Of a stretch of 33,541 bases of DNA, positions 1 through 14,216 are shown in pieces (positions within the stretch are counted from its first letter, which is position 1; each line of letters starts with the position of its first letter). The notes beneath the pieces are model-generated. The model saw only the letters and a list, made by a program, of their open reading frames with translations, was not told the DNA's origin and made no database searches. The stretch covers positions 1-33,541 of the forward strand of contig CACXIR010000003.1 in the NCBI GenBank assembly GCA_902767785.1. The letters are read 5' to 3'. Source of the DNA: Fibrobacter succinogenes (lineage in GTDB: Bacteria > Fibrobacterota > Fibrobacteria > Fibrobacterales > Fibrobacteraceae). Both the position numbers and the translations under genes were made by a program.

Positions 1-1032
1 AAGCCATTCCACCATGTGGGCTACCTGCAAGACGCCTGGAAGTTGACTCCTGATTTGTTGCTGCAGTACGGACTTCGCTTCAACTACCAGACGGCGGCAG
101 AACATTTCGGCGTGGAACCCCGCACCTCTTTGACCATCAATCTGGACAACACCAAGACCATTGAGCTGTATGGCGGCTATTACCTGCAATACCTGAATTC
201 CATTATTTATACCGACCAGGAAACTCTGAACGAATTCTACTACCCGGCAACTACTACCACCAAGGGCAAGCATATCAAACCCGCCTCGTCGTGGCTTGCC
301 GCCATCGAATACAGTCAGCGTGAAATCTTTGATGACTACGATGCTACTGTGGGCGTTTATTACAAGACTCAGAACAACCTGAATACCTTCGTGACACAGA
401 TGGACAGTACCGACGAGGAAGAATCCGATGAATTTGTGATTGCAGACTATTTCGGCACCGCCGAAGCCTATTCCTTTGGTTACGAACTTTCGCTCCGCAA
501 GGATAAGGGCTGGCTATTTGGAGGTATCAACTGGAGCCAAAGCATTAGTGTTATGCGCAGCAACGATGGCACCAAGGCCTATTTCCCCAGCTGGCATCAG
601 CCTTATGCGGTCAAGATGGACTTGGGTATAAACTGGAAGGGCGACGAAGACGCTCTTTGGAAACACAAGGTCAAGGGCCGCTATTTCCGCAGTTCCGTAA
701 TGCTCAAGTATTCGGCGGGCATGCCCATTAGCGAATACAAGGGATACTACTTCGCCGAAGAAATCGGGAACCAGCAGTATAACGACGATATCGTGGTGCT
801 GCCGGGTAGCCGCAATGCGGGCCGCCAAACGGACTACTTCCGGGTGGACGTGAAGCTGATCGACATCGGCCGCGAAAACAAGTGGAATTTCAGCTGGACC
901 ATCATCAACCTGACCGACCACGAGAACATGTTCTATACCTTCTACGATACCAGCAAGAACCCGCCGGAAAAGACTTCTATTACGCAGTTCCCCTTTTTAC
1001 CGATTATGCTGAGCTATGAGTACTATTTCTAG
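1..1032 (+). CDS. TonB-dependent receptor, C-terminal part (5' truncated by window)
   Basis: The reading frame is open from the first base, so the gene starts upstream of the window; only about 343 C-terminal residues are present. The sequence alternates aromatic and polar residues as in outer-membrane beta-barrel strands (GYLQDAWKLTPDLLLQYGLR, DYFRVDVKLIDIG, WTIINLTDHENMFYTFY). It ends in LSYEYYF, with the terminal Phe typical of barrels inserted by the BAM complex. TonB-dependent receptors import large or scarce substrates such as siderophores, vitamins or glycans across the outer membrane, using energy from TonB/ExbB/ExbD. The plug domain and TonB box are not visible, so the substrate cannot be guessed. 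The 3' end overlaps the following lipoprotein gene by 17 nt, implying a common transcript. A different 22-strand barrel is possible but less likely. Confidence 0.8.
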   Translation, partial: KPFHHVGYLQDAWKLTPDLLLQYGLRFNYQTAAEHFGVEPRTSLTINLDNTKTIELYGGYYLQYLNSIIYTDQETLNEFYYPATTTTKGKHIKPASSWLAAIEYSQREIFDDYDATVGVYYKTQNNLNTFVTQMDSTDEEESDEFVIADYFGTAEAYSFGYELSLRKDKGWLFGGINWSQSISVMRSNDGTKAYFPSWHQPYAVKMDLGINWKGDEDALWKHKVKGRYFRSSVMLKYSAGMPISEYKGYYFAEEIGNQQYNDDIVVLPGSRNAGRQTDYFRVDVKLIDIGRENKWNFSWTIINLTDHENMFYTFYDTSKNPPEKTSITQFPFLPIMLSYEYYF

Positions 1033-2632
1033 AGTGATTAACGGTTGGTGGTTGGTGCTTGGGGCGTTCCTCGCCGCTTGCGGGGATTTCCACGGACCAT
1101 GGGATTTCTATCCCGAAGAGCGGGAAGTCTATACCGGCATTTACACCTACGGCTATGTGCAGGCTAATGGTAGCACCAACATCTGTTTTTCGAAGGTCTA
1201 CGAGCTGGATGAAACGTCTTCTCCGACATTTGCTTTCTATGACAGCGCCCGCGTTACGGTGAAGGGCCGGTTCAGCAATCAGGGGAACACGGTGGACACC
1301 GCTCTCGCCCTCGTTCCTACATCGGCCAAGCCCAACTGCTTCGAAGGGCCCCTCGAAGGAATTTCCGGGGAATCCTACGCCATGAACGCCTACTTTGAAT
1401 GGGACAGTGCGGGGCATTCGGTCAAGACGACTTACACGGCAGAGGCGAAGATCCCGAAGCCGGTTAAAGTCAAGGGCGTCAACATGCCCCAGCAGGACGG
1501 TAGTTACAAGTGGAGCGAATACAAGGGCTACAAAGACGAAAACGACACCACGCCCATGCGGGTAAAATACCTGGAATTCCCTATGGACATGGAATTTTTC
1601 AAGGTGGCCTTGGATTACGACAAGTCTATTGGCGGCGTACTGATTCTTTTGACTTACAACATCGACAATGACGAGCCTTTGAATACCACGCTCAACAACA
1701 TGTTCAAGGGGTTTGCGAAAAAGGACTCCATGGGCTATCGGGGAATATCCGTACACAACCCCCTGGAAAATACGGTGAAGGGCGGCTATTCCGAAAACTC
1801 CACCATTGCCGGCATACACATGCTAGATACGCTTTACGGCACTGGCATGATGCTGCCTCTAGGCGAATTCTACATGGATTTCTACGCTACAGACAGTGCC
1901 TATATCGATTATGTGGACAAGGTAAAGGCATCTCAGGAAGATTCGCGAATTATTCCGGAATCCAACATCAAAAACGGCATGGGCGTGTTTACGGGCATTG
2001 CCAAGACCCGGGTCAATATTTTTGTGGAAGGCGATGGCGTTTCCCTTAGGCATGTGGCTTATAGGAACTGCAAAGATACCGAAGGCGACAATTCCAAGGG
2101 TTGGGATTCCAAGGCCTGCAGGCTTTACCAAGACGTCTTTTGTGCGGGAATCGAGAAGTGGGGCGACCTGCAATCTGCAAACGCGTCGGCCTACAAATTC
2201 TACACCGATTCCGTACCGCATTATGGAATGAAGGAATGCTATGCCTCCCAGGTCAAGGCTGCCATGATGCTGGATACTACAAAATGGTCCCTCTTCTTGC
2301 CTGATTCCATGCCCGATAAGGATAGGAACAATGCCTACTCTGACGGCCTTAAGCGTTATTGCGTGGCCAGCAATTTTAAGAGCAACAAGATTGCAAACTG
2401 CAAGTCTCTTGCCGAACAGTGCCTTGAAAGCCCTGAGAAAAACAATTGCAAAGAATACCTTTGGCTGTGGTGTGCCGACCGCAACTGGGATATTGGCGAA
2501 AACGGCTATGAGCAGTGTCGCAGCGCCCTGGTGAGCCGTTATTACCTAGAAAAACAAAAATCCCCCGTCTTGGCGAGGGAGGTTGAGGTTATCTGTAAGC
2601 AGGACAAGCCTGCGATTTGCAAGAATTGGTGA
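1016..2632 (+). CDS. Cys-rich lipoprotein of unknown function, coupled to a TonB-dependent receptor
   Basis: A protein of 538 residues with a short N-terminus, a hydrophobic stretch and a lipobox LAAC (Cys22), so it is predicted to be a lipid-anchored envelope protein. The middle is beta-rich and shows no family I recognise. The last ~190 residues hold many Cys in short-spaced patterns (for example KANCKSLAEQC-like spacing, NNCKEYLWLWC and QCRSAL), suggesting a disulfide-stabilised helical module. The start codon lies inside the 3' end of the receptor gene (17 nt overlap), so translation is probably coupled and the product may work with that receptor as a surface or periplasmic accessory. The signal-peptide codons (1033-1058) look like the GGTTGGTGG-type low-complexity repeat seen between genes elsewhere in the window. 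Coding status is well supported; function is unknown. Confidence 0.8.
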   Translation: MSTISRVINGWWLVLGAFLAACGDFHGPWDFYPEEREVYTGIYTYGYVQANGSTNICFSKVYELDETSSPTFAFYDSARVTVKGRFSNQGNTVDTALALVPTSAKPNCFEGPLEGISGESYAMNAYFEWDSAGHSVKTTYTAEAKIPKPVKVKGVNMPQQDGSYKWSEYKGYKDENDTTPMRVKYLEFPMDMEFFKVALDYDKSIGGVLILLTYNIDNDEPLNTTLNNMFKGFAKKDSMGYRGISVHNPLENTVKGGYSENSTIAGIHMLDTLYGTGMMLPLGEFYMDFYATDSAYIDYVDKVKASQEDSRIIPESNIKNGMGVFTGIAKTRVNIFVEGDGVSLRHVAYRNCKDTEGDNSKGWDSKACRLYQDVFCAGIEKWGDLQSANASAYKFYTDSVPHYGMKECYASQVKAAMMLDTTKWSLFLPDSMPDKDRNNAYSDGLKRYCVASNFKSNKIANCKSLAEQCLESPEKNNCKEYLWLWCADRNWDIGENGYEQCRSALVSRYYLEKQKSPVLAREVEVICKQDKPAICKNW

Positions 2633-2897: not shown

Positions 2898-3599
2898 ATG
2901 CAGTCAAGACTCAAAGAAGCAGTTGTGCTCGCTATTGCCATTCTTGGGCTGGGCGCTTTCCTCTATTGCGCCATGATCCACGTGAAGGACCGGGACCGCG
3001 TAGTGTTTGTGCGGGGGCTTGCTGAGCGTGAAGTCCCGGCCGATTATGTAATATGGCCCATCGTGTTCAAGGAAGCGGGCAACGACCTTTCGGCTCTGTA
3101 CGAGACGGTCCAGGCCAAGACCCAGGCTTTGGAAAAGTTCCTCCAGGATAACGGGGTCGCCCAAGAAGAAATTACCAAGGCATCCCCGGACATTGCGGAC
3201 GCCCAGAGCGAACTCTACGCCAGCGAAAAACGACCTTTCCGTTACGTTGTGACCATGTCGCTTACGGTGGCCTCCAAGAATGTGGGCAAGGTTCGCGAAC
3301 TCATGGGCAAGCAGGGCGAACTCTTGAAACAGGGAATTGCCTTTAGCGAGGGGGATTACCGCTACCGCAAGATTTACAGTTTTAACGGCCTGAATGCCAT
3401 CAAGCCCGAGATGATTGAAGAGGCCAACAAGGACGCCCGTGCTGCTGCCGAAAAATTCGCCAAGGATTCCAGGAGCAAACTGGGTAAAATCAAGACGGCA
3501 ACTCAGGGGCTGTTCTCTATCGAGGACCGCGACGAAAATACGCCCTTTGTCAAGAAGGTTCGTGTGGTCACCAACGTGCAGTATTTCTTGGAAGACTAG
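2898..3599 (+). CDS. SIMPL-domain (DUF541) periplasmic protein
   Basis: A protein of 233 residues with one N-terminal membrane segment (residues ~8-27, AVVLAIAILGLGAFLYCAMI) that can act as signal anchor. The remainder matches the SIMPL/DUF541 pattern: VFVRGLAEREVPADYVIW near the start, a helix with KTQALEKFLQDNGV, then ITKASPDI and a C-terminal strand VTNVQYFLED. SIMPL proteins (E. coli YggE, BP26) are periplasmic or membrane-tethered and form ring oligomers in some cases; their biochemical role is unsettled and has been linked to oxidative stress. The start is supported by AGGAG about 8 nt upstream (2885-2889). It leads a three-gene run with the nitrilase-like and NUDIX genes (gaps 26 and 5 nt). 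Confidence 0.85.
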   Translation: MQSRLKEAVVLAIAILGLGAFLYCAMIHVKDRDRVVFVRGLAEREVPADYVIWPIVFKEAGNDLSALYETVQAKTQALEKFLQDNGVAQEEITKASPDIADAQSELYASEKRPFRYVVTMSLTVASKNVGKVRELMGKQGELLKQGIAFSEGDYRYRKIYSFNGLNAIKPEMIEEANKDARAAAEKFAKDSRSKLGKIKTATQGLFSIEDRDENTPFVKKVRVVTNVQYFLED

Positions 3600-3625
3600 G
3601 TCGTACACTATTCTGGTAAGGGCTT

Positions 3626-5023
3626 ATGCAGAATATCTATAACAATGTGGCGGACCTTTGTTCCTTTGTTATCCGTTCCTGTACAGAGGATTTTTTCGTC
3701 AAGTACAGTTGCATTTCTCCTGCTGAAAGGGAAAGGGCCGCCACAATCGTGCAGGCCGAGGTGGGGGAACTTTTTCAAGAAACCCCTCTTGGACCTTCCC
3801 GCTACAAAATCCGCCAGATTGAGCCCCAGGATTTGACGGAAGATTTTTTTGCCAGGCTTGAAAAACTGTCGGAGCGGCTAAAAAGCGAAAAGGATTTTTT
3901 TGGCGTTGCAGGCCTAATTCAGATTCTTGATGAAAGTTTGGAAACCATGCTGGTGGCCAAAATCAAGGAGTTCGAAGAAGACGATTTTTCTGTGGTGCTG
4001 AATGGCAACCGCGAAACTACGGGAATAGGGCTTTTGCCCCGCTGTTCTTGCGTGTGGGAGCGTACCCACCGCATGTCCCATAGTTACAACCGCATGGACA
4101 ATTTCTTGTTCAACATGCTCCTGATGGAAAACACCATTTTGGGAGAGCTGATAGACAAACATATTTTCTTGAAGCGGGACCTCTTTACGGAGTTTGCCAA
4201 AACCAGGCGGCTTAAGATAGCGGCAACACCCTTAAGGCTTGAAAAGCAGTTTGAGGCCGTTCCCTACGACCACGAAAACATCCAGTATTTCAAGATTCGC
4301 TATACAGAATCGGATTTCAGCAAGAGTAACGAACTCATCTGGAAAAAGATTACCACCGCCGCCGACAACCGTGCCGACATCGTGGTGTTTCCCGAAATGC
4401 TTGGCAACCCAGAAATGGTAGATTATGTTTCGGGTAAGTTGAAGGCCCTTTCTCCAGAGGAGACGAAAAATATTCCTTCCCTGATTATTCTGCCCTCTTT
4501 CTGGGAAAAAAATCACAATAGCGTTACCATCTTGGACAAGTTCGGCAACGTGATTTGTAAGCAGGGCAAGCAGAACCCCTTCCGCTCCGAAAGGGAAGGC
4601 TCTGGCCGCTTAGAAGGTATTTTTGCCAACCTGGTCATCAACATTTTCCACTTCCAGGGAATAGGCAGGCTTGCCATCCTTATATGCAAGGACTTTTTGA
4701 CTACCAAGTATTTGGAACAGCTCATGCGTTGTTTCAAGCTGACCCTGATTGTGGTGCCTTCGTTCTCAACGGGTTCCTACGATTTCCGCAGGTCCTTTGA
4801 CCTGTGTGCCCATGATGATTGCAATGTGGTGTGGATAAACACCTGCGCCGCCATCAGGAAGGGCAAAGAGGCCAACTTTGAAAGTGTGGGCTATGTGCGC
4901 AAGAGGGTTTCCCGCAACGACGACGAATCCCAGATGCTGAGCAAAATGACTATTTGCGATGGAGCCTTCGAGGGCAAGTGTAACCACGACTGTCTTTTCT
5001 ACGAGACTATTCAAGGAGTGTAA
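3626..5023 (+). CDS. Carbon-nitrogen hydrolase (nitrilase superfamily) with a novel N-terminal domain
   Basis: A protein of 465 residues. Residues ~196-455 form a nitrilase-fold domain: the catalytic Glu in VVFPEML (Glu257), Lys in the KQGKQNPF segment (Lys312 or Lys315) and nucleophile Cys in AILICKDF (Cys354), followed by LIVVPSFS and VVWINTCAA strands. This superfamily hydrolyses or condenses nonpeptide C-N bonds (amides, nitriles, carbamoyl groups, glutamine in NAD synthetase). Residues 1-195 are not part of the usual domain; they look mostly helical, contain several Cys, and are unknown to me. No signal peptide, so cytosolic. The NUDIX gene follows after 5 nt, suggesting co-expression. 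The triad is intact, so it is probably an active enzyme; the substrate cannot be inferred. Confidence 0.8.
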   Translation: MQNIYNNVADLCSFVIRSCTEDFFVKYSCISPAERERAATIVQAEVGELFQETPLGPSRYKIRQIEPQDLTEDFFARLEKLSERLKSEKDFFGVAGLIQILDESLETMLVAKIKEFEEDDFSVVLNGNRETTGIGLLPRCSCVWERTHRMSHSYNRMDNFLFNMLLMENTILGELIDKHIFLKRDLFTEFAKTRRLKIAATPLRLEKQFEAVPYDHENIQYFKIRYTESDFSKSNELIWKKITTAADNRADIVVFPEMLGNPEMVDYVSGKLKALSPEETKNIPSLIILPSFWEKNHNSVTILDKFGNVICKQGKQNPFRSEREGSGRLEGIFANLVINIFHFQGIGRLAILICKDFLTTKYLEQLMRCFKLTLIVVPSFSTGSYDFRRSFDLCAHDDCNVVWINTCAAIRKGKEANFESVGYVRKRVSRNDDESQMLSKMTICDGAFEGKCNHDCLFYETIQGV

Positions 5024-5028
5024 GGGTT

Positions 5029-5589
5029 ATGGAATTTGAAGGGCTGGAAAAAGTTCATTCGGGAAAGTTCATTACCCGCTACAACATCCATTACAGGGCG
5101 CCCAGCGGAAAGCCCATCACCTACGAGATGATCAGCCGCAACCCGAACCTTTCTGATTTGGAGTCGCTGCACCACCACGGGGTAAATGCAGTGGTCATGA
5201 TTGTGCACGACGAGTCTGGTGAGAAACTCCTGCTGTGCAAAGAATTCCGCATGGCGGTAGGAGAGCAGGTGGTCAATTTCCCTGCGGGCCTTATTGACAA
5301 GGGCGAAACGGTGGAACAGGCCGCTGCCCGCGAACTGCGGGAAGAGACGGGCTTGGAACTGTTACGCATCAAGGAAATTTGGAAGGAAAGCTATTCTGCC
5401 ATCGGCTTTGCCGACGAACTCAACGTGGTGGTAGAGGGCGTTGCGGTTGGGCAGTTTAGGCCCAGCGATTCCGAGCGTGAAGAAATCGACGCCGCTTGGT
5501 ACACTAAAGAAGAAGTGCGTCAACTGCTAAAGACGGAACATTTTGCCGCCAGGACGCAATCCTATTGTATTCTGTGGAGCAGAACTTAG
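5029..5589 (+). CDS. NUDIX hydrolase, ADP-ribose pyrophosphatase-like
   Basis: A protein of 186 residues carrying a complete Nudix box: G87, E93, then RELREETG (residues 101-108), fitting GX5EX7REUXEEXGU. The box is preceded by KEFRMAVGEQVVNFPAGLID, which resembles the strand and PAG segment of ADP-ribose and NDP-sugar pyrophosphatases. Such enzymes cleave ADP-ribose or related nucleoside diphosphate derivatives to two monophosphates in the cytosol with Mg2+ bound by the box glutamates. It starts 5 nt after the nitrilase-like gene. Its 3' end overlaps the stop of the convergent FISUMP lipoprotein gene by 4 nt. The family is clear; the exact substrate is inferred from the PAG context only. Confidence 0.88.
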   Translation: MEFEGLEKVHSGKFITRYNIHYRAPSGKPITYEMISRNPNLSDLESLHHHGVNAVVMIVHDESGEKLLLCKEFRMAVGEQVVNFPAGLIDKGETVEQAAARELREETGLELLRIKEIWKESYSAIGFADELNVVVEGVAVGQFRPSDSEREEIDAAWYTKEEVRQLLKTEHFAARTQSYCILWSRT

Positions 5590-6359
5590 GCTTTCTCCTT
5601 AACGCAGCGAATATAGGCCCACCTGTCTGGTGGATCTCCAGCAGAAATCGCATGTAATGGGTAAAGGAGCCAAATTTTAAAAGCCATCCATATAATACCT
5701 CGATTCATCCAATAGGCCGCATATTCCCCTTCTTCCTCAAATTTAGTGCTCTTTATGCCGATAGCGCCTCCCCCCAATAGCACGTTGAAACTATAGGGGT
5801 CGTTTTCCATTTCAGGATATGATTCGTCGACGATGGATGCAAGTAGTTTGTCCCACTCTTTTTTTGTCGGCATCCTCCAGCCCGCGGGGCATGCTTTTTC
5901 GACGCTTTTGTAACCGTAGAGCCTTCCGTATTTTTTGCACTTTTCTGGATTGTCGTCGTAACAGCGGCTAATATCAAGTTCATAGTTCAGGTTTTCGGCC
6001 ATCCAGGTCAAAGTGTCAATTTTTACCGTTTTGTAGACCTTCCCGTCGCGTTCGTCCTTAAGGGAATCCCTTACAACCGTACTAGGGTCCACTGGATCGC
6101 CGCTACCACCAAAGTCCGAAACCCACTCACCGTCTTCGCAGGCGTAAGTATCAAAGATGGTGTCCCGAGGCACCTTGTACAACTGGCCCTCTTTTTCAGC
6201 GGTGCATTCGCCGGCTTCCTCTATGGACTTTAGTATTTCAATGCCGTCGATGTCATTGCTGCTGGAACTGTCGTCGGAGCATGCAGTAAACAGGAACCCG
6301 GAAAGGGCGGCTATTAAAGCGGCACGGCTTGCATTACGAAAGGAAATGGTTCTGGACAT
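5586..6359 (-). CDS. FISUMP-domain lipoprotein
   Basis: A protein of 257 residues with an N-terminal signal peptide and lipobox FTAC (Cys27), followed by a Ser/Asp linker (SDDSSSSNDIDG). Residues ~35-75 resemble the short Cys-containing modules common before FISUMP domains (CTAEKEGQLYKV ... YACEDGEWV). Residues ~100-257 form the FISUMP domain (TIGR02145): GKVYKTVKIDTLTWMAENLN, CYDDNPEKCKKYGRLYG, and CPAGWRMPTKKEWDKLL. The domain is expanded in Fibrobacter; its function is not established, though it is secreted. Transcribed convergently to the NUDIX gene (4 nt overlap) and divergently from the TonB2-like cluster. A minus-strand TATATT lies about 20 nt upstream, with GAGGTG just before the start. 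Confidence 0.88.
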   Translation of the reverse strand: MSRTISFRNASRAALIAALSGFLFTACSDDSSSSNDIDGIEILKSIEEAGECTAEKEGQLYKVPRDTIFDTYACEDGEWVSDFGGSGDPVDPSTVVRDSLKDERDGKVYKTVKIDTLTWMAENLNYELDISRCYDDNPEKCKKYGRLYGYKSVEKACPAGWRMPTKKEWDKLLASIVDESYPEMENDPYSFNVLLGGGAIGIKSTKFEEEGEYAAYWMNRGIIWMAFKIWLLYPLHAISAGDPPDRWAYIRCVKEKA

Positions 6360-6487: not shown

Positions 6488-7324
6488 ATGAAAAGACTGA
6501 GATTTTTGCCCTTGGCGCTTCTGGTAATGCTGCTTTCGGGGTTGGCTTTTGCTGACTACGACTCCGAAATTCGCGACCTGAAGTTGGAAAAGGAAAAACT
6601 GAATTCCGAAATCAAGAAATTGAACAGGCAAATCGCCTCTACGGATTCAATGCTCCGTGCCGACGATACTCGCTACAAGACATTGCAGAACCGCTACAAG
6701 GCGGATACGGAACGCCGCCGTGCAGAAATCGACAGCTTGAACGCTAAGATTCATGCGGTGGCTGCTCAGCTGCAAGAGGAGCGGAACAAGCAGGCTCATG
6801 CCAAGAATAGGAGCGACAACGTTGCCGCTAAACGCAAGGCCCTGCGTTCCACGCTAGTTTCCCTTTGCAAGCAGTTGGAACGTCAGGTGGCTTTGACGGT
6901 GCCTTGGGAGCTGGAAGGCAGGCTAGATCGCGTGCGATCCCTGACCCGTGATATTGAAAGCGGAAACGCTTCTGAAGAGGAGGGCTTCTCTCGCTTTAAG
7001 GCCATTGTCCAGCAAGAAATCAAGTTCGGTGACGAGGTCGCCATCATGAATACGCCCCTTACCCGCAAGAACGGCGAATTGATTAACGCCCAAGTACTTC
7101 GCGTTGGGAACCAGTGGATGGTCTACAGCGACGAAAACGGCACCGTTTACGGGAATCTGGTCCGTAAAGAACAGAGGGGCAAGATTACCTACGAGTGGAA
7201 TGAGAACTTGGAATTGTGGGAACGTGAGGTTATCCGTTACGCCATTGACGTGAAGCTTGCCAAGAAGCCCCCGCAGATCATTGCCATGCCTGTAACCCTT
7301 TCTGTGGTAGGAGGCGTGAAATGA
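6488..7324 (+). CDS. DUF3450-like periplasmic coiled-coil protein (TonB2 cluster)
   Basis: Starting at 6488 gives 278 residues with a clear signal peptide (FLPLALLVMLLSGLAFADYD); the longer open frame from 6329 lacks support because it would put that peptide internally. Residues ~22-110 are a long coiled coil (EIRDLKLEKEKLNSEIKKLN ...). The C-terminal half has GELINAQVLRVGNQWMVYSD and ends in IDVKLAKKPPQIIAMPV, resembling the end of DUF3450 proteins, which are periplasmic partners encoded beside TtpC in Vibrio TonB2 clusters. It overlaps the next gene by 4 nt (ATGA), so translation is coupled. Its C-terminal region resembles the middle of the next protein, suggesting an old duplication. No strong ribosome binding site is seen. 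The DUF3450 assignment rests on pattern and context. Confidence 0.72.
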   Translation: MKRLRFLPLALLVMLLSGLAFADYDSEIRDLKLEKEKLNSEIKKLNRQIASTDSMLRADDTRYKTLQNRYKADTERRRAEIDSLNAKIHAVAAQLQEERNKQAHAKNRSDNVAAKRKALRSTLVSLCKQLERQVALTVPWELEGRLDRVRSLTRDIESGNASEEEGFSRFKAIVQQEIKFGDEVAIMNTPLTRKNGELINAQVLRVGNQWMVYSDENGTVYGNLVRKEQRGKITYEWNENLELWEREVIRYAIDVKLAKKPPQIIAMPVTLSVVGGVK

Positions 7325-8847
7325 AAAAAATACTCTTGGTAACGTTACTGTTCGCAGCCAGTGCTGCTTTTGCTTCCAGGTCCAGCGATGCAGAAGAACA
7401 GGCCCGCGTTCGGGATTCCCTAAAGCAGGTGGAACTGCAGAATTTACAGCGTGAGGTGGAATCCTTGACCCGCATACGCCTGCAAAAGGCGGATTCCCTC
7501 GAGAAGTTGGAGGCTGCCCACTGGAGCAAGCGTTACGCCGAATCCAAGATGACGGAAGAACACCAGGTGGCGACCCGTGAACTGGATGGCCGGTATTCCA
7601 AGCTTTCTACGGACTTGGGGCGCGTAAGCGAAGAGGTGCAGTCCAGCAAGTCCGTGACCGCTGAGGCAGAAGAAAATGCTAAAGCCGAAGAGGATTCCTT
7701 TGAGTCTTTCAACACCCAGGTCAGGCTTTCCATAGACAAGTCCTTGGAAGAGGTGACGGGGGATTATCCCGTGGGCATGGACCAGCGTTTGATTTCTTTG
7801 AAGAAGTCGCAAAAAGATGCCGGCAAGAAAAATCCCAACACCATGGGCGCCGTACGCGGTTATGCACTAGACCTGTTGAATCGTCACGAATTGACCTATA
7901 CCCAGTCCTTTGGCACCGTAAAAACTCAAGTGGGAAACCGCCCCGACGTGAACGTCTACCGCCTGCGTCTGGGAACAGTGTTCCTGGGCGAAGCTGCTAC
8001 CGACAATGGCGAAATTCAGGCCCTGCTCCGTACCGGTGCCCTGCAGGGCAAACGCTACGAATGGAATTCTACCCTCCCCAAGGACATGAATGACGTTATC
8101 CGCACGGCAATTAATAGTGCCTATTCGGGACTTTCAAAGTCCAGTACGGTGACGGTGGACATTCCCATGGACGTTCTCCAGAACAAGGCTATCCGCAATG
8201 CCATTACCGGAAAAGAGCAGGGTTCTTTGGGCAAGCGCTTCATGGACTGGTTCAAGAAGGGTGGCATTGTGATGTATCCCCTTTCACTAGTAGCCCTTTT
8301 TGCCCTACTCCTTGCGTTGGAAAGGTTCATTGTTCTTAGCCGTCGTGGGCATTTGGGCAGGCGTTTTGCAAAACGCTTGGAGCAACTGCTTCAGGGTTCC
8401 CGTTTCGAGGAGGCAGCAAACCTTTGCCTCCGCTACGATACCAGCCTTGCCATGGTGCTTTTTGCTGTGCTGAATAAGGCGGGGGAAACTCGCGAGGCTG
8501 CGGAACGCTCCCTGCAAGAGGCGTTGCTCCGCGAACAGCCCAAATTGGAACGCCGCATGGGGCTTTTGGCCGCCATGGGCACTATCGCACCCTTGCTTGG
8601 ACTTTTGGGAACGGTGACAGGCATTATCACTTTGTTTACCGTCATTACCGAGGTGGGAACCAACGATGCTCGCGTGCTTGCCGGCGGTATTTCCGAAGCC
8701 CTGGTGACCACGGAAACGGGCCTTGTCATTGCTATTCCGGTTATGATTATTCACGGCCTTCTGAGTGAAAAAATCGAGAAGGTTACTAGCGAAATGTATG
8801 TCCAGAGCACCGCGCTCTTGAATCGTATTTTCGGGAAGGACGCCTAG
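7321..8847 (+). CDS. TtpC-like MotA/TolQ/ExbB proton-channel protein with periplasmic coiled coil
   Basis: A protein of 508 residues. Residues 1-19 are a signal peptide (ILLVTLLFAASAAFASR); ~22-130 form a coiled coil; ~170-290 form a DUF3450-like module (NVYRLRLGTVFLGE ... IPMDVLQ). From ~305 it is a MotA/TolQ/ExbB protein: first membrane helix MYPLSLVALFALLLALERFI, cytosolic helices with LERRMGLLAAMGTIAPLLGL, the channel helix LGTVTGIITLFTVI, and GISEALVTTETGLVIAIPVM. This architecture is that of TtpC, a fourth inner-membrane component required by the Vibrio TonB2 system; it probably couples proton flow to a periplasmic extension. It ends 5 nt before the exbB gene. A plain ExbB would be about half this length, so the N-terminal extension is decisive. 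Confidence 0.82.
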   Translation: MKKILLVTLLFAASAAFASRSSDAEEQARVRDSLKQVELQNLQREVESLTRIRLQKADSLEKLEAAHWSKRYAESKMTEEHQVATRELDGRYSKLSTDLGRVSEEVQSSKSVTAEAEENAKAEEDSFESFNTQVRLSIDKSLEEVTGDYPVGMDQRLISLKKSQKDAGKKNPNTMGAVRGYALDLLNRHELTYTQSFGTVKTQVGNRPDVNVYRLRLGTVFLGEAATDNGEIQALLRTGALQGKRYEWNSTLPKDMNDVIRTAINSAYSGLSKSSTVTVDIPMDVLQNKAIRNAITGKEQGSLGKRFMDWFKKGGIVMYPLSLVALFALLLALERFIVLSRRGHLGRRFAKRLEQLLQGSRFEEAANLCLRYDTSLAMVLFAVLNKAGETREAAERSLQEALLREQPKLERRMGLLAAMGTIAPLLGLLGTVTGIITLFTVITEVGTNDARVLAGGISEALVTTETGLVIAIPVMIIHGLLSEKIEKVTSEMYVQSTALLNRIFGKDA

Positions 8848-8852
8848 CCGGC

Positions 8853-9488
8853 ATGAGCAACTCCTTTTACATATTCGTAGAATCCTTGCGGAACACCTAC
8901 CAGGCTGGCGGCGTGGTGATGCTTCCCATATTGCTGTCGGGAGTTGTGGGCTTTTACTTTTTGTATTCGGGTTGGATGCGCATTGGTAGCGACTTTTTCC
9001 GCCGGGACATCAACAAGGTGGTCAACCGCATGAGTCAGGACCTGAATAGCGGAGCGGAAAAGGCGGAACAGCGCCTGCGTAAGCGTGGCGGCCTGTTGTC
9101 TAGGGAATTGCGCTACGCCTTGGATGTGGCAATGGAAACTCCGGAAGTTTTCCGCGACTACATGCAGGTGCGGATCATGAAAACCATCCGCTACATGGAG
9201 CAGGGAAACCACATTGTCTCGGTGATGGCTGCTGCCGCCCCACTGCTTGGTTTGTTGGGAACGGTTACGGGCATGGTTTCCACCTTCAACGTGATTACGC
9301 TGTACGGGAACCAGAATCCGGTGCTTATGGCAGACGGCATTTCAGAAGCATTGATTTCTACCCAGAGCGGGCTTTTGGTGGCTTTTCCCTTGACCCTTTT
9401 AAAACAGCGATTGGACGAGCGGATTGACACCTTGCGGCAGAATATGGAACTGGGCGCCACCGTGATAGAGAATCACTATGGAATTTAA
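8853..9488 (+). CDS. exbB: ExbB-type proton channel subunit
   Basis: A protein of 211 residues with three membrane helices: VVMLPILLSGVVGFYFLYSG (~20-40), SVMAAAAPLLGLLGTVTGMV (~120-145), and ISEALISTQSGLLVAFPLTL (~165-185). The AAPLLGLLGTVTGM and TQSGLLVA motifs are hallmarks of the MotA/TolQ/ExbB channel family. With ExbD it forms the inner-membrane proton channel that energises TonB. It lies 5 nt after the TtpC-like gene and overlaps exbD by 11 nt, so the channel subunits are translationally coupled. Two ExbB-family proteins in one cluster is the TonB2 arrangement. TolQ is an alternative name, but the neighbouring tonB gene favours ExbB. Confidence 0.88.
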   Translation: MSNSFYIFVESLRNTYQAGGVVMLPILLSGVVGFYFLYSGWMRIGSDFFRRDINKVVNRMSQDLNSGAEKAEQRLRKRGGLLSRELRYALDVAMETPEVFRDYMQVRIMKTIRYMEQGNHIVSVMAAAAPLLGLLGTVTGMVSTFNVITLYGNQNPVLMADGISEALISTQSGLLVAFPLTLLKQRLDERIDTLRQNMELGATVIENHYGI

Positions 9489-9882
9489 CTTGCCAAGAAA
9501 AAAGCAGAAGGATATGGGCATCGAGATGGGCCCCTTGATGGACATCGTGTTCATCCTGCTTATCTTTTTCGTGGTAACGTCTTCTTTTACCCGCGAAACT
9601 GGCGTGGATGTAACCAAGCCTCAGGCTCAAACGGCAAGTCAGTTGGAAAAAGAAAACTTGCTCATTGCCATTACCCGGGAGGGGACCATCCACATGAACG
9701 AGCGTCAGGTGGATTTGGCAAGCCTTCAGGATATTTTAAAGCAGTCTTTGGCAAAGGCTCCAGACCGTGAGGCTGTCGTAATCGCCGACAAGGGTGCAGA
9801 AACGGGCGTGCTGGTGCAGGTGATAGACATGTGCAACTTGGCCGGCGTCAAGAAGGTTTCCATTGCCGCCCAGGCAGAGTGA
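9478..9882 (+). CDS. exbD: ExbD/TolR-type biopolymer transport protein
   Basis: A protein of 134 residues with a basic cytosolic start (NLPRKKQKDMG), one membrane helix MDIVFILLIFFVVTSSF carrying the conserved proton-carrying Asp (Asp22 in PLMDIVF), and a periplasmic domain of alternating strands and helices (LLIAITREGTIHMNERQV ... DREAVVIADKGAETG). It pairs with ExbB to convert the proton motive force into movement of TonB. The start overlaps the exbB stop by 11 nt. The region after it, before tonB, holds low-complexity and palindromic repeats, so tonB may be partly uncoupled from it. Confidence 0.9.
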   Translation: MEFNLPRKKQKDMGIEMGPLMDIVFILLIFFVVTSSFTRETGVDVTKPQAQTASQLEKENLLIAITREGTIHMNERQVDLASLQDILKQSLAKAPDREAVVIADKGAETGVLVQVIDMCNLAGVKKVSIAAQAE

Positions 9883-9884
9883 AG

Positions 9885-9924
9885 TCAGTGTGAAGTGTGT
9901 AATGTGTAGTGTGTGATGAATGTA
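9885..9924 (+). repeat. GT-rich low-complexity repeat (GTGTGTAGTGTG type)
   Basis: Imperfect reiterations of GTGTGTAATGTGTAGTGTG between exbD and tonB. A similar tract, AGTGTGTAGTGTGGAATGTG, lies at 22591-22624 before the trmH-like gene. It is non-coding and in both cases sits directly after a stop codon. Confidence 0.6.
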
Positions 9925-9929
9925 AATAC

Positions 9930-9957
9930 GTCATCCTGAGGCGTAGCCGAAGGATCC
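9930..9957. repeat. Palindromic intergenic element with GTCATCCTGAG core
   Basis: The stem is ATCCT (9933-9937) with AGGAT (9951-9955), a symmetric GA/GA internal loop, then GGC/GCC closing a GTA loop. Another element beginning GTCATCCT lies at 13364-13387, and a truncated copy at 13442-13451. This looks like a small dispersed palindromic repeat located inside the exbD-tonB gap. Confidence 0.6.
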
Positions 9958-9976
9958 AGGCCTGAAGTTTTTAAAT

Positions 9977-10624
9977 ATGCGTAAGATTCTAAAGAAAACC
10001 TTCAAGCGTTTCACAGTCCTGCTTGCTGCAGTGCTGTCTAGTTTGTTGCTTGTTTTTTCCGTGACTCTTGCCAACATGTTCTTGACCGGTAAAATCTTCC
10101 ACGAAATAAAGTACACCAAGACCGAGGTGGCGGTAAAAAAAGTGGAAGAAATGGAAAAGAAGGTGGAAAAGAAAAAGCCCGCCCGCAAGCCGGAACGCCA
10201 AAAGACTACATCCCGCACGCCCAAGGCGGGGCCGCGGCTCGCCATGAACTTGGGGGTTGCCTCGGGTACGGCGGGAGCCGCCATCAACGAGGAACTGGTG
10301 GCCGATTTTCGGGGAGGTTCCCTTTCTAGCGAAAAAGGCGATGTGGACAAGAGGCCCGAAAGCAGGACCATGCCGGATTTCCAGGTGCCTACCCAAATCA
10401 GGGACCGTGAAGTAGACGCCACCTTGCGTCTGAGCTTTTGCGTAGATGTGGGCGGCCGCGCCTACGACATCCGTGTGGTGGAGGAATCCCCTGCGGGTTC
10501 TGGCCTTGCTGCCGCCGGCCGCGAAGCGCTTGGCCGTATGACCTTCGCTCCTGCCGAAAAAGGCGGCAAGGCGGTGGCGTTCTGCGGAATGGAACAACCT
10601 TTTGAAGTGAAGTTCAAGGACTAG
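9977..10624 (+). CDS. tonB: TonB-family energy transducer
   Basis: A protein of 215 residues: basic N-terminus (MRKILKKTFKRF), one membrane anchor (residues ~12-35, VLLAAVLSSLLLVFSVTLAN), a Lys/Glu/Pro-rich periplasmic spacer (KVEEMEKKVEKKKPARKPER), a low-complexity linker, and a C-terminal TonB domain from ~145 (VDATLRLSFCVDVGGRAYDI ... GREALGRMTFAPA). TonB spans the periplasm and pulls on the plug of outer-membrane receptors. The spacer is short and the protein is nearer the size of Vibrio TonB2 than E. coli TonB. Cys155 and Cys203 in the C-terminal domain could form a disulfide, which is unusual. It is followed after 3 nt by a TPR gene. The start has no clear Shine-Dalgarno sequence. Confidence 0.85.
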   Translation: MRKILKKTFKRFTVLLAAVLSSLLLVFSVTLANMFLTGKIFHEIKYTKTEVAVKKVEEMEKKVEKKKPARKPERQKTTSRTPKAGPRLAMNLGVASGTAGAAINEELVADFRGGSLSSEKGDVDKRPESRTMPDFQVPTQIRDREVDATLRLSFCVDVGGRAYDIRVVEESPAGSGLAAAGREALGRMTFAPAEKGGKAVAFCGMEQPFEVKFKD

Positions 10625-10627
10625 CTC

Positions 10628-11659
10628 ATGCGTTTTGCCAACTGTTTCTTGCCTGCTGTCCTTTGCTTTGCCACATTCTCTTTTGCGGTACAGTCCTACT
10701 ACGACATTATGGAGCGGGCTAACGACCTTTACCGCAAGGGAAAATTCAGCCAGGCCATAATCCTTTACCAAAAGGCGGTAGACCGCGGTGCCGATCCTAG
10801 CGCCATCAGTTTCAATATCGCCAACAGTTACTACCAGATGGAAAAATACCCGGAGGCTGCTGCAGCCTACCGCAAGGCGGTGGATTATACCAACGGGAGT
10901 TTCGCCCCTGCGGTGTTCAACATGGCCAGCGTGTATTTCCGCTTAAAGCAATATCCGGAGTGCATCGCCGCCTACCACAGGGCGTTAAAATTAGAACCCT
11001 CCAATGTCTCGGGCTGGCTGTACCTTGGGGAAGCCTATAGCAAGGTGGGCGACAAGGTGGGAGCTTTGCGGGCTATTGAAAAAGCCTACGAGCTGGACAA
11101 GGCTGACATCAGCATCGTCTATCAACTTTCAGAGGCCAACATCGCCTTGGGCGATTTTGATAGGGCAGAAGCCGTAGTGCGAGAAGGCTATGCCGCCCAC
11201 CCCGAAGAGGTGGATTTTCTGGTGTACCTGGGTGATGTTTTCCGTTTGAACAAGCAATACGAGGAAAGCGCCGCCAGCTACCGCGAAGCCTTGGGCATTA
11301 AGCCTGACGATGTGAACGTGATGTACAAGCTGGCGGATGTTCTGGTGGAAGACAATAAGACCTTTATCGCCATGGATGTCTTGAACAGCATTTTGCAGAT
11401 AAAGCCTGGTTTTTCCGATGCCGCCATTTTCCTCGGGAATCTGGCATACGACACCAAGTTCCTGGACCGTGCTGAGTCCGCCTATGAACTTGCCGCCAAG
11501 AGCGGGAACCCCGAAGCCATTTATGGATTCAAGAATATGGCATACGACGCCCTGGCCCAAAAACGCAATTCCGAGGCCCAGCGTCTTTTGTTGTTGGCGC
11601 AAAAATACTACCCCAATGACCAGTCCCTAAAGGCGGATCTGTTGGAATTGGGGCTGTAG
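10628..11659 (+). CDS. Periplasmic TPR-repeat protein (TonB2 cluster)
   Basis: A protein of 343 residues with a signal peptide (CFLPAVLCFATFSFAVQS) and a run of about eight tetratricopeptide repeats, for example ANDLYRKGKFSQAIILYQKA, VFNMASVYFRLKQYPECIAA and GWLYLGEAYSKVGDKVGALR. TPRs form a superhelical protein-binding surface. A TPR protein is the usual last member of TonB2/TtpC clusters, where it probably organises the periplasmic complex. It begins 3 nt after tonB and ends 4 nt before the convergent permease gene. The TPR assignment is secure; its role is inferred from gene order. Confidence 0.85.
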   Translation: MRFANCFLPAVLCFATFSFAVQSYYDIMERANDLYRKGKFSQAIILYQKAVDRGADPSAISFNIANSYYQMEKYPEAAAAYRKAVDYTNGSFAPAVFNMASVYFRLKQYPECIAAYHRALKLEPSNVSGWLYLGEAYSKVGDKVGALRAIEKAYELDKADISIVYQLSEANIALGDFDRAEAVVREGYAAHPEEVDFLVYLGDVFRLNKQYEESAASYREALGIKPDDVNVMYKLADVLVEDNKTFIAMDVLNSILQIKPGFSDAAIFLGNLAYDTKFLDRAESAYELAAKSGNPEAIYGFKNMAYDALAQKRNSEAQRLLLLAQKYYPNDQSLKADLLELGL

Positions 11660-13451: not shown

Positions 13452-13490
13452 AAAAATAACAACTAACTCCACCGGAGGGGTGTAGTTATT
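13452..13490 (-). terminator. Probable Rho-independent terminator of the FISUMP lipoprotein
   Basis: Read on the minus strand, AATAAC pairs with GTTATT, enclosing a CTCC/GGAG hairpin, and is followed by TTTTTC. The stem starts at the stop codon of the lipoprotein gene. Confidence 0.55.
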
Positions 13491-14052
13491 TCTTGATGCA
13501 GCGGACGGAGGCAAAAATGTTCTTGTTGAAGTGTTCGTAGGCGATTCCGGAGTCGGTAATGCGGACAAGGTAAGCCCTGGAATCGTCATAGCTGTCGCTT
13601 GTCCAGAAACTGGCGCTTACGCCCTTGTCGGCGAAGTTTCCGTCGTAGTACTTGAATCCGGCGAAGAGGGCGTTAAAACCGTTGGCGTTTTTGAGTGCGG
13701 CGGGTTCGCTTGTGCCGAAGGCCACCTTGAAATCTTCTACGGTGGGGAGTGCCCAACCTGTGGGGCATACGTTACCCGATGCGGAGGCGAAAGTGTACAG
13801 GCGTCCGTCCGTATTGCAGTTGTCGTGGTTGTTGGCGTAGCACACGCTTGAATCCGGAGTAAACACGTCCAGGTTTTCGGCCATCCAGGTCTTTCCGCCC
13901 AGAGTTGCGGTCTTGTAGGTCTTTTCGGGGCAGGCGAGGGTGTGGCCGGCCTCGTTGTAGGCGCAGTTCCGGTTGTCGTTGCAGGCGGTAAAGACAACGG
14001 CGGTGAATGCGACGAGGGCTGTGGTGGCAAGTGTTTTAAGAACCGATTTCAT
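13486..14052 (-). CDS. FISUMP-domain lipoprotein
   Basis: Starting at 14052 gives 188 residues with signal peptide and lipobox FTAC (Cys24); the longer open frame from 14145 is rejected because AAAGGAG lies directly upstream of 14052 and the signal peptide then sits at the N-terminus. Residues ~45-188 form the FISUMP domain: KTYKTATLGGKTWMAENLD, CYANNHDNCNTDGRLYTF, CPTGWALPTVEDF, and the end FASVRCIKK. It is nearly all domain, shorter than the other copy in the window. Predicted surface or periplasmic lipoprotein; the function of the domain is not established. It has its own minus-strand TATCTTTG promoter-like element and a terminator, so it is likely monocistronic. Confidence 0.9.
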   Translation of the reverse strand: MKSVLKTLATTALVAFTAVVFTACNDNRNCAYNEAGHTLACPEKTYKTATLGGKTWMAENLDVFTPDSSVCYANNHDNCNTDGRLYTFASASGNVCPTGWALPTVEDFKVAFGTSEPAALKNANGFNALFAGFKYYDGNFADKGVSASFWTSDSYDDSRAYLVRITDSGIAYEHFNKNIFASVRCIKK

Positions 14053-14097
14053 GAGAACTCCTTTGAATGTGCCTTGGGGCTTTTTTGTTTTCGGTGA

Positions 14098-14105
14098 CAA
14101 AGATA
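14098..14105 (-). promoter_or_regulatory. Candidate promoter element TATCTTTG for the FISUMP lipoprotein
   Basis: On the minus strand, 46 nt upstream of the start codon. It fits the TAnnTTTG form of the Bacteroidota -7 element. The -33 partner is not evident. Confidence 0.4.
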
Positions 14106-14216
14106 AAACATGATTTTGATATTGACTAATAAATAATTTTTTCATTTTTAATCACTTTTTTTGATGATTTTTCTAAAAATCCTTGTTTAACCCTTCTGTA
14201 TCCTGATTTTATTGTT

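Follow-up and report, generated by a model that had tools for sequence, protein, structure and literature searches.

The six genes at positions 6488-11659 of a 33,541-nucleotide stretch of Fibrobacter succinogenes DNA (hereafter, the window) encode a TtpC-type, TonB2-like outer-membrane energiser. From comparisons of sequence and gene neighbourhood, we consider it probable that they belong to an ancestral eight-gene operon, in the order receptor, lid, TtpB, TtpC, ExbB, ExbD, TonB and TtpD, which would provide one importer with its own motor rather than act as a general power supply. The identity of the motor itself is confirmed. A sequence-only reading had proposed a complete TtpC-type TonB2 cluster here, and each gene matches its named family in Pfam (Table 1). 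That reading had also noted the gene order, and the series DUF3450, TtpC, ExbB, ExbD, TonB and TPR is indeed that of the Vibrio TonB2/TonB3 operon (ttpB-ttpC-exbB-exbD-tonB-ttpD). Because this order is kept in other genomes, it is not due to chance. All six genes lie on the plus strand, with successive intergenic distances of -4, 5, -11, 94 and 3 bp. The extent proposed earlier requires revision: the six genes are real, but the conserved unit is larger, adding the receptor at 1-1032 and the lipoprotein at 1016-2632. The host genome assembly comprises 2.53 Mb in 177 contigs and is 88% complete.

Table 1. Genes of the receptor-lipoprotein-motor region of the window and the matches that identify them
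Feature	Position	Strand	Remarks
TonB-dependent receptor, C-terminal barrel	1..1032	+	PF00593 30.5 bits, above cut-off; 5' part lost at contig start
Cys-rich DUF4249-like lipoprotein	1016..2632	+	overlaps receptor gene by 17 bp; probable receptor lid
TtpB	6488..7324	+	secreted DUF3450 protein: signal peptide, coiled coil, C-terminal domain; PF11932 75.9 bits, E 3.8e-21
TtpC (long ExbB)	7321..8847	+	MotA_ExbB PF01618 E 8.7e-32, confined to residues 379-492 of 508
ExbB, second channel protein	8853..9488	+	MotA_ExbB PF01618 E 2.9e-27; T137/T170 conserved
ExbD	9478..9882	+	PF02472 104.9 bits, E 4.2e-30; essential Asp D22 conserved
Divergent TonB	9977..10624	+	TonB_C PF03544 exactly at cut-off: 24.6 bits, E 3.5e-5
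TtpD-like periplasmic TPR protein	10628..11659	+	TPR_2 E 1.9e-34; conserved last gene of cluster
Four interposed genes	2898..6359	mixed	SIMPL/DUF541 (+), 465-aa protein (+), NUDIX (+), FISUMP protein (-)

The first two proteins of the cluster are related to each other. TtpB has a signal-peptide-like N-terminus when counted from the ATG at 6488. TtpC likewise starts with a signal peptide, after which a long periplasmic region precedes the channel. The AlphaFold model of TtpC (mean predicted local distance difference test score 82) contains a 113-residue helix (residues 35-147), which we estimate would span about 17 nm if straight, followed by a DUF3450-like beta domain (195-249) and a three-helix ExbB channel that matches TolQ and ExbB in Foldseek. 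As the sequence-only reading had supposed, the first gene encodes a DUF3450 protein and the N-terminal half of the second aligns with gammaproteobacterial TtpC. In profile comparisons, this periplasmic half is homologous to TtpB (Prob 99.4), and remains so once the coil is removed (98.3), while unrelated coiled-coil and TPR controls all score below 12. The coil-free comparison and the controls rule out a coiled-coil artefact, and TtpB is, judging by these profiles, a free copy of the periplasmic half of TtpC. DUF3450 has been noted earlier as an N-terminal extension of ExbB-like proteins (PMC12505986). A search of solved structures with the TtpB sequence gave no match.

Both channel proteins carry two pore threonines 33 residues apart (T431/T464 in TtpC, T137/T170 in ExbB), the spacing of T148/T181 in E. 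coli ExbB. The essential aspartate of ExbD (PMC6778125), D22 in the window, is invariant in 69 cluster members. Since these residues are intact, TtpC and ExbB both look like working channel proteins. The suggestion that the system contains two channel proteins and two periplasmic scaffold proteins thus fits the sequences, although a joint complex of them is only putative.

A second complete cluster is present in the same genome on contig C112, and carries a canonical TonB. We refer to clusters of the window type as W and to those of the C112 type as Q. Across 20 regions from eleven other genomes, the six-gene order is kept except at contig ends and in short fragments, and every cluster can be assigned to W or Q. 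Of 151 Fibrobacterota genomes, 137 have DUF3450 matches, and 78 of the 80 Fibrobacter genomes encode a close W-type ExbD. In a TtpC tree, the closest relatives of the window protein are from Fibrobacter, and W forms one clade (100/98) within a Fibrobacterota clade (99/95) that includes one long-branched spirochaete metagenome-assembled genome. This tree rules out horizontal transfer from Vibrio. Rows labelled Q fall in two places in it, so “Q” outside Fibrobacteraceae may represent more than one lineage. In the second cluster of the host genome (L004:418-1388), the TPR gene is split into two open reading frames that are a single frame in relatives, which reflects either an assembly error or a pseudogene.

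The proposal of a larger unit derives from the association of W-type motors with one receptor family. Orthologues of the receptor are present in all 80 Fibrobacter genomes and, at full length, comprise about 850 aa with a Plug domain. At 65 of 81 receptor loci, a W-type ExbD gene follows the receptor gene on the same contig and strand at a distance of up to 20 kb; the median is 5.3 kb, and 43 of the pairs are no more than 6.5 kb apart. Of the others, 14 have receptor and motor split between contigs, many of them in fragmented assemblies, and two have a long distance between the genes on a single contig. A further 11 Fibrobacter loci contain both the lipoprotein gene and TtpB; in 9 of these the two overlap or are separated by no more than about 90 bp, the exceptions being L130 and L134. 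The order receptor, lipoprotein, TtpB also recurs at loci L143-L146, which come from another genus, from families separate at the order and class levels and from another class, as well as at L048. No receptor or lipoprotein match was found directly upstream of Q-type clusters, for which the flanks examined are usually 1-2 kb.

Just before the plug, the receptor orthologues share a conserved LKKVVVQ-like segment, which from its sequence is likely the TonB box; the corresponding peptide is TELKKVVVQLRRRPKR, the N-terminus of the window’s own receptor lying outside the window. The accompanying lipoprotein probably acts as the lid of the receptor. The only profile to recur among its family members is DUF4249, which 13 of 18 match, always below the cut-off, the best score being 28.2 against a threshold of 28.5 bits. 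Twelve cysteines, including the lipobox Cys22, are invariant across the 18 lipoprotein sequences. For a surface lipoprotein family of an anaerobe, twelve invariant cysteines is a striking number (window 1016-2632, alignment A4).

The TonB of the window also differs from the canonical form. It is predicted to have an N-terminal transmembrane helix, a periplasmic linker and a C-terminal TonB fold. While its TonB_C score only reaches the cut-off, the predicted structure matches C-terminal domains of TonB in the PDB, the best being FoxA-bound TonB (6i97_D, TM score 0.89 on the target, Foldseek), and we therefore regard the TonB fold as confirmed. All 10 W-type TonBs compared, which come from Fibrobacter, from other families and from a second class, have cysteines at -60 and -12 from the C-terminus (Cys155 and Cys203 in the window), a pair absent from all other TonBs in the compared set. 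In the predicted structure, one cysteine lies in the first long strand of the domain and the other in the last, and we infer that they could form a disulfide. None of these 10 proteins has an intact YP motif: its tyrosine is replaced by V, P, L or M while the proline is kept. Inspection by eye for the D-box motif (PMC10907165) gave no clear match in either TonB type.

These features are most simply read as those of an importer with a motor to itself, in which the dedicated pairing, the formation of a complex, the function of the lid and the direction of transport are all inferred. ExbB and TtpC would act as proton channels around ExbD, and the flow of protons would move TonB. The TonB C-terminal domain would then pull on the LKKVVVQ TonB box of the linked receptor, opening the plug, and a ligand held beneath the lipoprotein lid would pass into the periplasm. 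A periplasmic scaffold reaching from the motor to the outer membrane would be built from the TPR protein and the extended DUF3450 coils of TtpB and TtpC. More tentatively, we entertain a stricter form of this idea: a one-motor-one-receptor TonB system whose altered, disulfide-stabilised TonB C-terminal domain co-evolved with a single receptor and lid, is insulated from the canonical TonB, and predates the split of the Fibrobacterota classes.

It is important to consider the observations that weigh against a dedicated unit. In the window, four genes part the lid from the motor. The receptor and motor are far apart in genomes G045 and G053, and one W-type cluster (L147; G134:C106) has neither receptor nor lipoprotein in the 8 kb upstream; co-transcription is therefore not universal. 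Membership of the lipoprotein in DUF4249 depends on scores below threshold. The flanks of Q clusters, mostly 1-2 kb, are short enough to leave room for a more distant receptor. Moreover, at least one further receptor is encoded in the genome (C74), a possible client of either motor. A search for Plug domains had suggested a single receptor in the genome, a reading rejected because the start of the window is a cut receptor barrel. The C74 receptor (L009:6335-9674) is BtuB-like and is followed by a 416-aa lipoprotein that appears propeller-like by eye, an arrangement that recalls BtuB-BtuG of Bacteroides.

One alternative is that the cluster is a general-purpose TonB2-like energiser for all receptors, with the linked receptor one client that is nearby by history. 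Vibrio TonB2 powers the uptake of several siderophores (PMC6957404), Fibrobacter genomes encode roughly 1-6 Plug-domain receptors each, and the TonB fold of the window protein is standard. However, the linkage to a single receptor family is phylum-wide and is not seen directly upstream of the paralogue, the divergent TonB C-terminal domain is confined to the W cluster type, and the same genome has a second, canonical TonB on C112. We therefore judge a general energiser unlikely, and favor a motor dedicated to the linked receptor.

Comparison with known systems helps to define what is particular to this unit. The Vibrio TonB2 and TonB3 systems have the same six families in the same order, with a homologous TtpC, and the TonB3 operon likewise opens with an outer-membrane receptor gene (PMC6957404). 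However, the window TtpC belongs to a separate deep branch of the tree, its receptor is paired with a DUF4249-like lipoprotein, and its TonB has the cysteine pair and lacks the tyrosine of YP. No Fur box was found within 3 mismatches of an E. coli-type consensus, which may not be that of Fibrobacter; Fur regulation is a feature of Vibrio TonB2 only. In Bacteroidota, the receptor gene BT2172 similarly adjoins the DUF4249-type gene BT2173, the latter being confined to Bacteroidetes according to STRING (as cited in PMC11003636). The pair in the window differs in adjoining its own six-gene motor and in having a longer lipoprotein with 12 invariant cysteines and a weak DUF4249 score. Serratia ExbB-Sm, which works with HasB, also has a signal peptide and a periplasmic N-terminal extension (PMC9008036), but that extension has about 50 residues and is rich in alanine and proline, whereas that of the window TtpC has about 280 and consists of a coiled coil and a DUF3450-like domain. 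In addition, the window cluster has a second, ordinary ExbB. Finally, an Agl/Glt-type cluster (C70 in the same genome; FSU_2400-2403 in strain S85) also combines a TonB-like protein with members of the MotA/ExbB and ExbD families, but has two ExbD and neither DUF3450 nor TtpC. Glt/Agl homologues have been reported in Fibrobacteres (PMC3169522). The C70 cluster (G000, L007:4562-9207) has the order TPR-ExbB-ExbD-ExbD-TonB-like, lies upstream of mreB/mreC, and has the same gene content as FSU_2400-2403.

Another possibility is that the receptor-like barrel serves outward transport or a surface process such as secretion or adhesion, as proposed for Oar and PopC in Myxococcus. A TonB-dependent transporter required for secretion is known (PMC6434023), and the lipoprotein is large and Cys-rich. 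Conversely, proteins of the DUF4249 family are reported to pair with transporters in Bacteroides, where disruption of either partner has similar consequences (PMC11003636), and no secretion genes are consistently linked to the cluster in relatives. We consider this alternative very improbable.

We likewise give little credence to a motor for cellodextrin uptake that is induced on cellulose. The host genus is cellulolytic, and Teredinibacter needs tonB1b/tonB2 to grow on cellulose (PMC10734418). However, the receptor and motor are kept throughout the phylum, including a separate class. Moreover, the TonB proteins raised on cellulose in S85, FSU_2400-2403 (PMC6851124), match the Agl/Glt-like cluster by gene content, while the TtpC-type proteins FSU_0431/0435 are slightly down on cellulose (PMC6851124) and resemble the paralogue. 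The masses and isoelectric points of FSU_0431/0435 (PMC4619616), the only properties compared, are nearer those of Q- than of W-type proteins, which suggests that they belong to the paralogous cluster. A 2015 study saw these two proteins in one cellulose treatment only, so the proteome data are not wholly consistent. Phylum-wide conservation and the S85 proteomics nevertheless weaken a role in cellulose uptake, and the link that the sequence-only reading drew to a cellulose-degrading lineage is unsupported.

That reading fared better in expecting a broad distribution. In a sample of 80 loci from genome contigs, 68 of which have a long TtpC, we found clusters that are complete or nearly so, once contig ends and missed open reading frames are taken into account, in Desulfobacterota, Planctomycetota, Verrucomicrobiota, Krumholzibacteriota, Campylobacterota, Gammaproteobacteria and Nitrosomonas, and partial ones in Spirochaetota and Kiritimatiellota. 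All 38 such genomes tested encode TonB-dependent receptors, and 13 of 19 large same-strand neighbour genes tested in other phyla are receptors. The published view that only vibrios and some marine bacteria possess ttpB, ttpC and ttpD (PMC10734418) is therefore too narrow, and this survey corrects it.

The six-gene system of Vibrio (PMC6957404), DUF3450 extensions and receptor-DUF4249 pairs are already known. To our knowledge of the literature searched, five points are new: Fibrobacterota have the system in two ancient copies; it is widespread; TtpB and TtpC are explicitly identified as homologues; receptor, lipoprotein and motor form a conserved unit; and one type of TonB has a cysteine pair. 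TtpB, TtpC and TtpD are essential in Vibrio. The recognition of TtpB as a free copy of half of TtpC, and a phylum-wide motor tied to a single receptor and lid, provide a well-delimited setting for studying the role of these extra parts and the way in which cells with several TonBs keep them apart. Conservation of the receptor points to a conserved nutrient in Fibrobacter, a genus with few TonB-dependent receptors.

Some further observations concern neighbouring genes. The interposed genes at 2898-6359 are absent between the lipoprotein and TtpB in most relatives, with the first three common to the close relative L130. Among the loci examined, it is only in L130 that the 465-aa protein (3626-5023) also adjoins the operon. 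This protein has no Pfam match at E 1e-5, and its C-terminal part appears nitrilase-like by eye. FISUMP (Fib_succ_major) proteins on the minus strand flank the motor cluster at 5586-6359 and 13486-14145. Lastly, two deltaproteobacterial TtpC clusters have large cobalamin-related neighbours, CobN (L054:154-3276) and CbiZ with a periplasmic binding domain (L075:3305-5335), which hint at B12-type substrates at those two loci.

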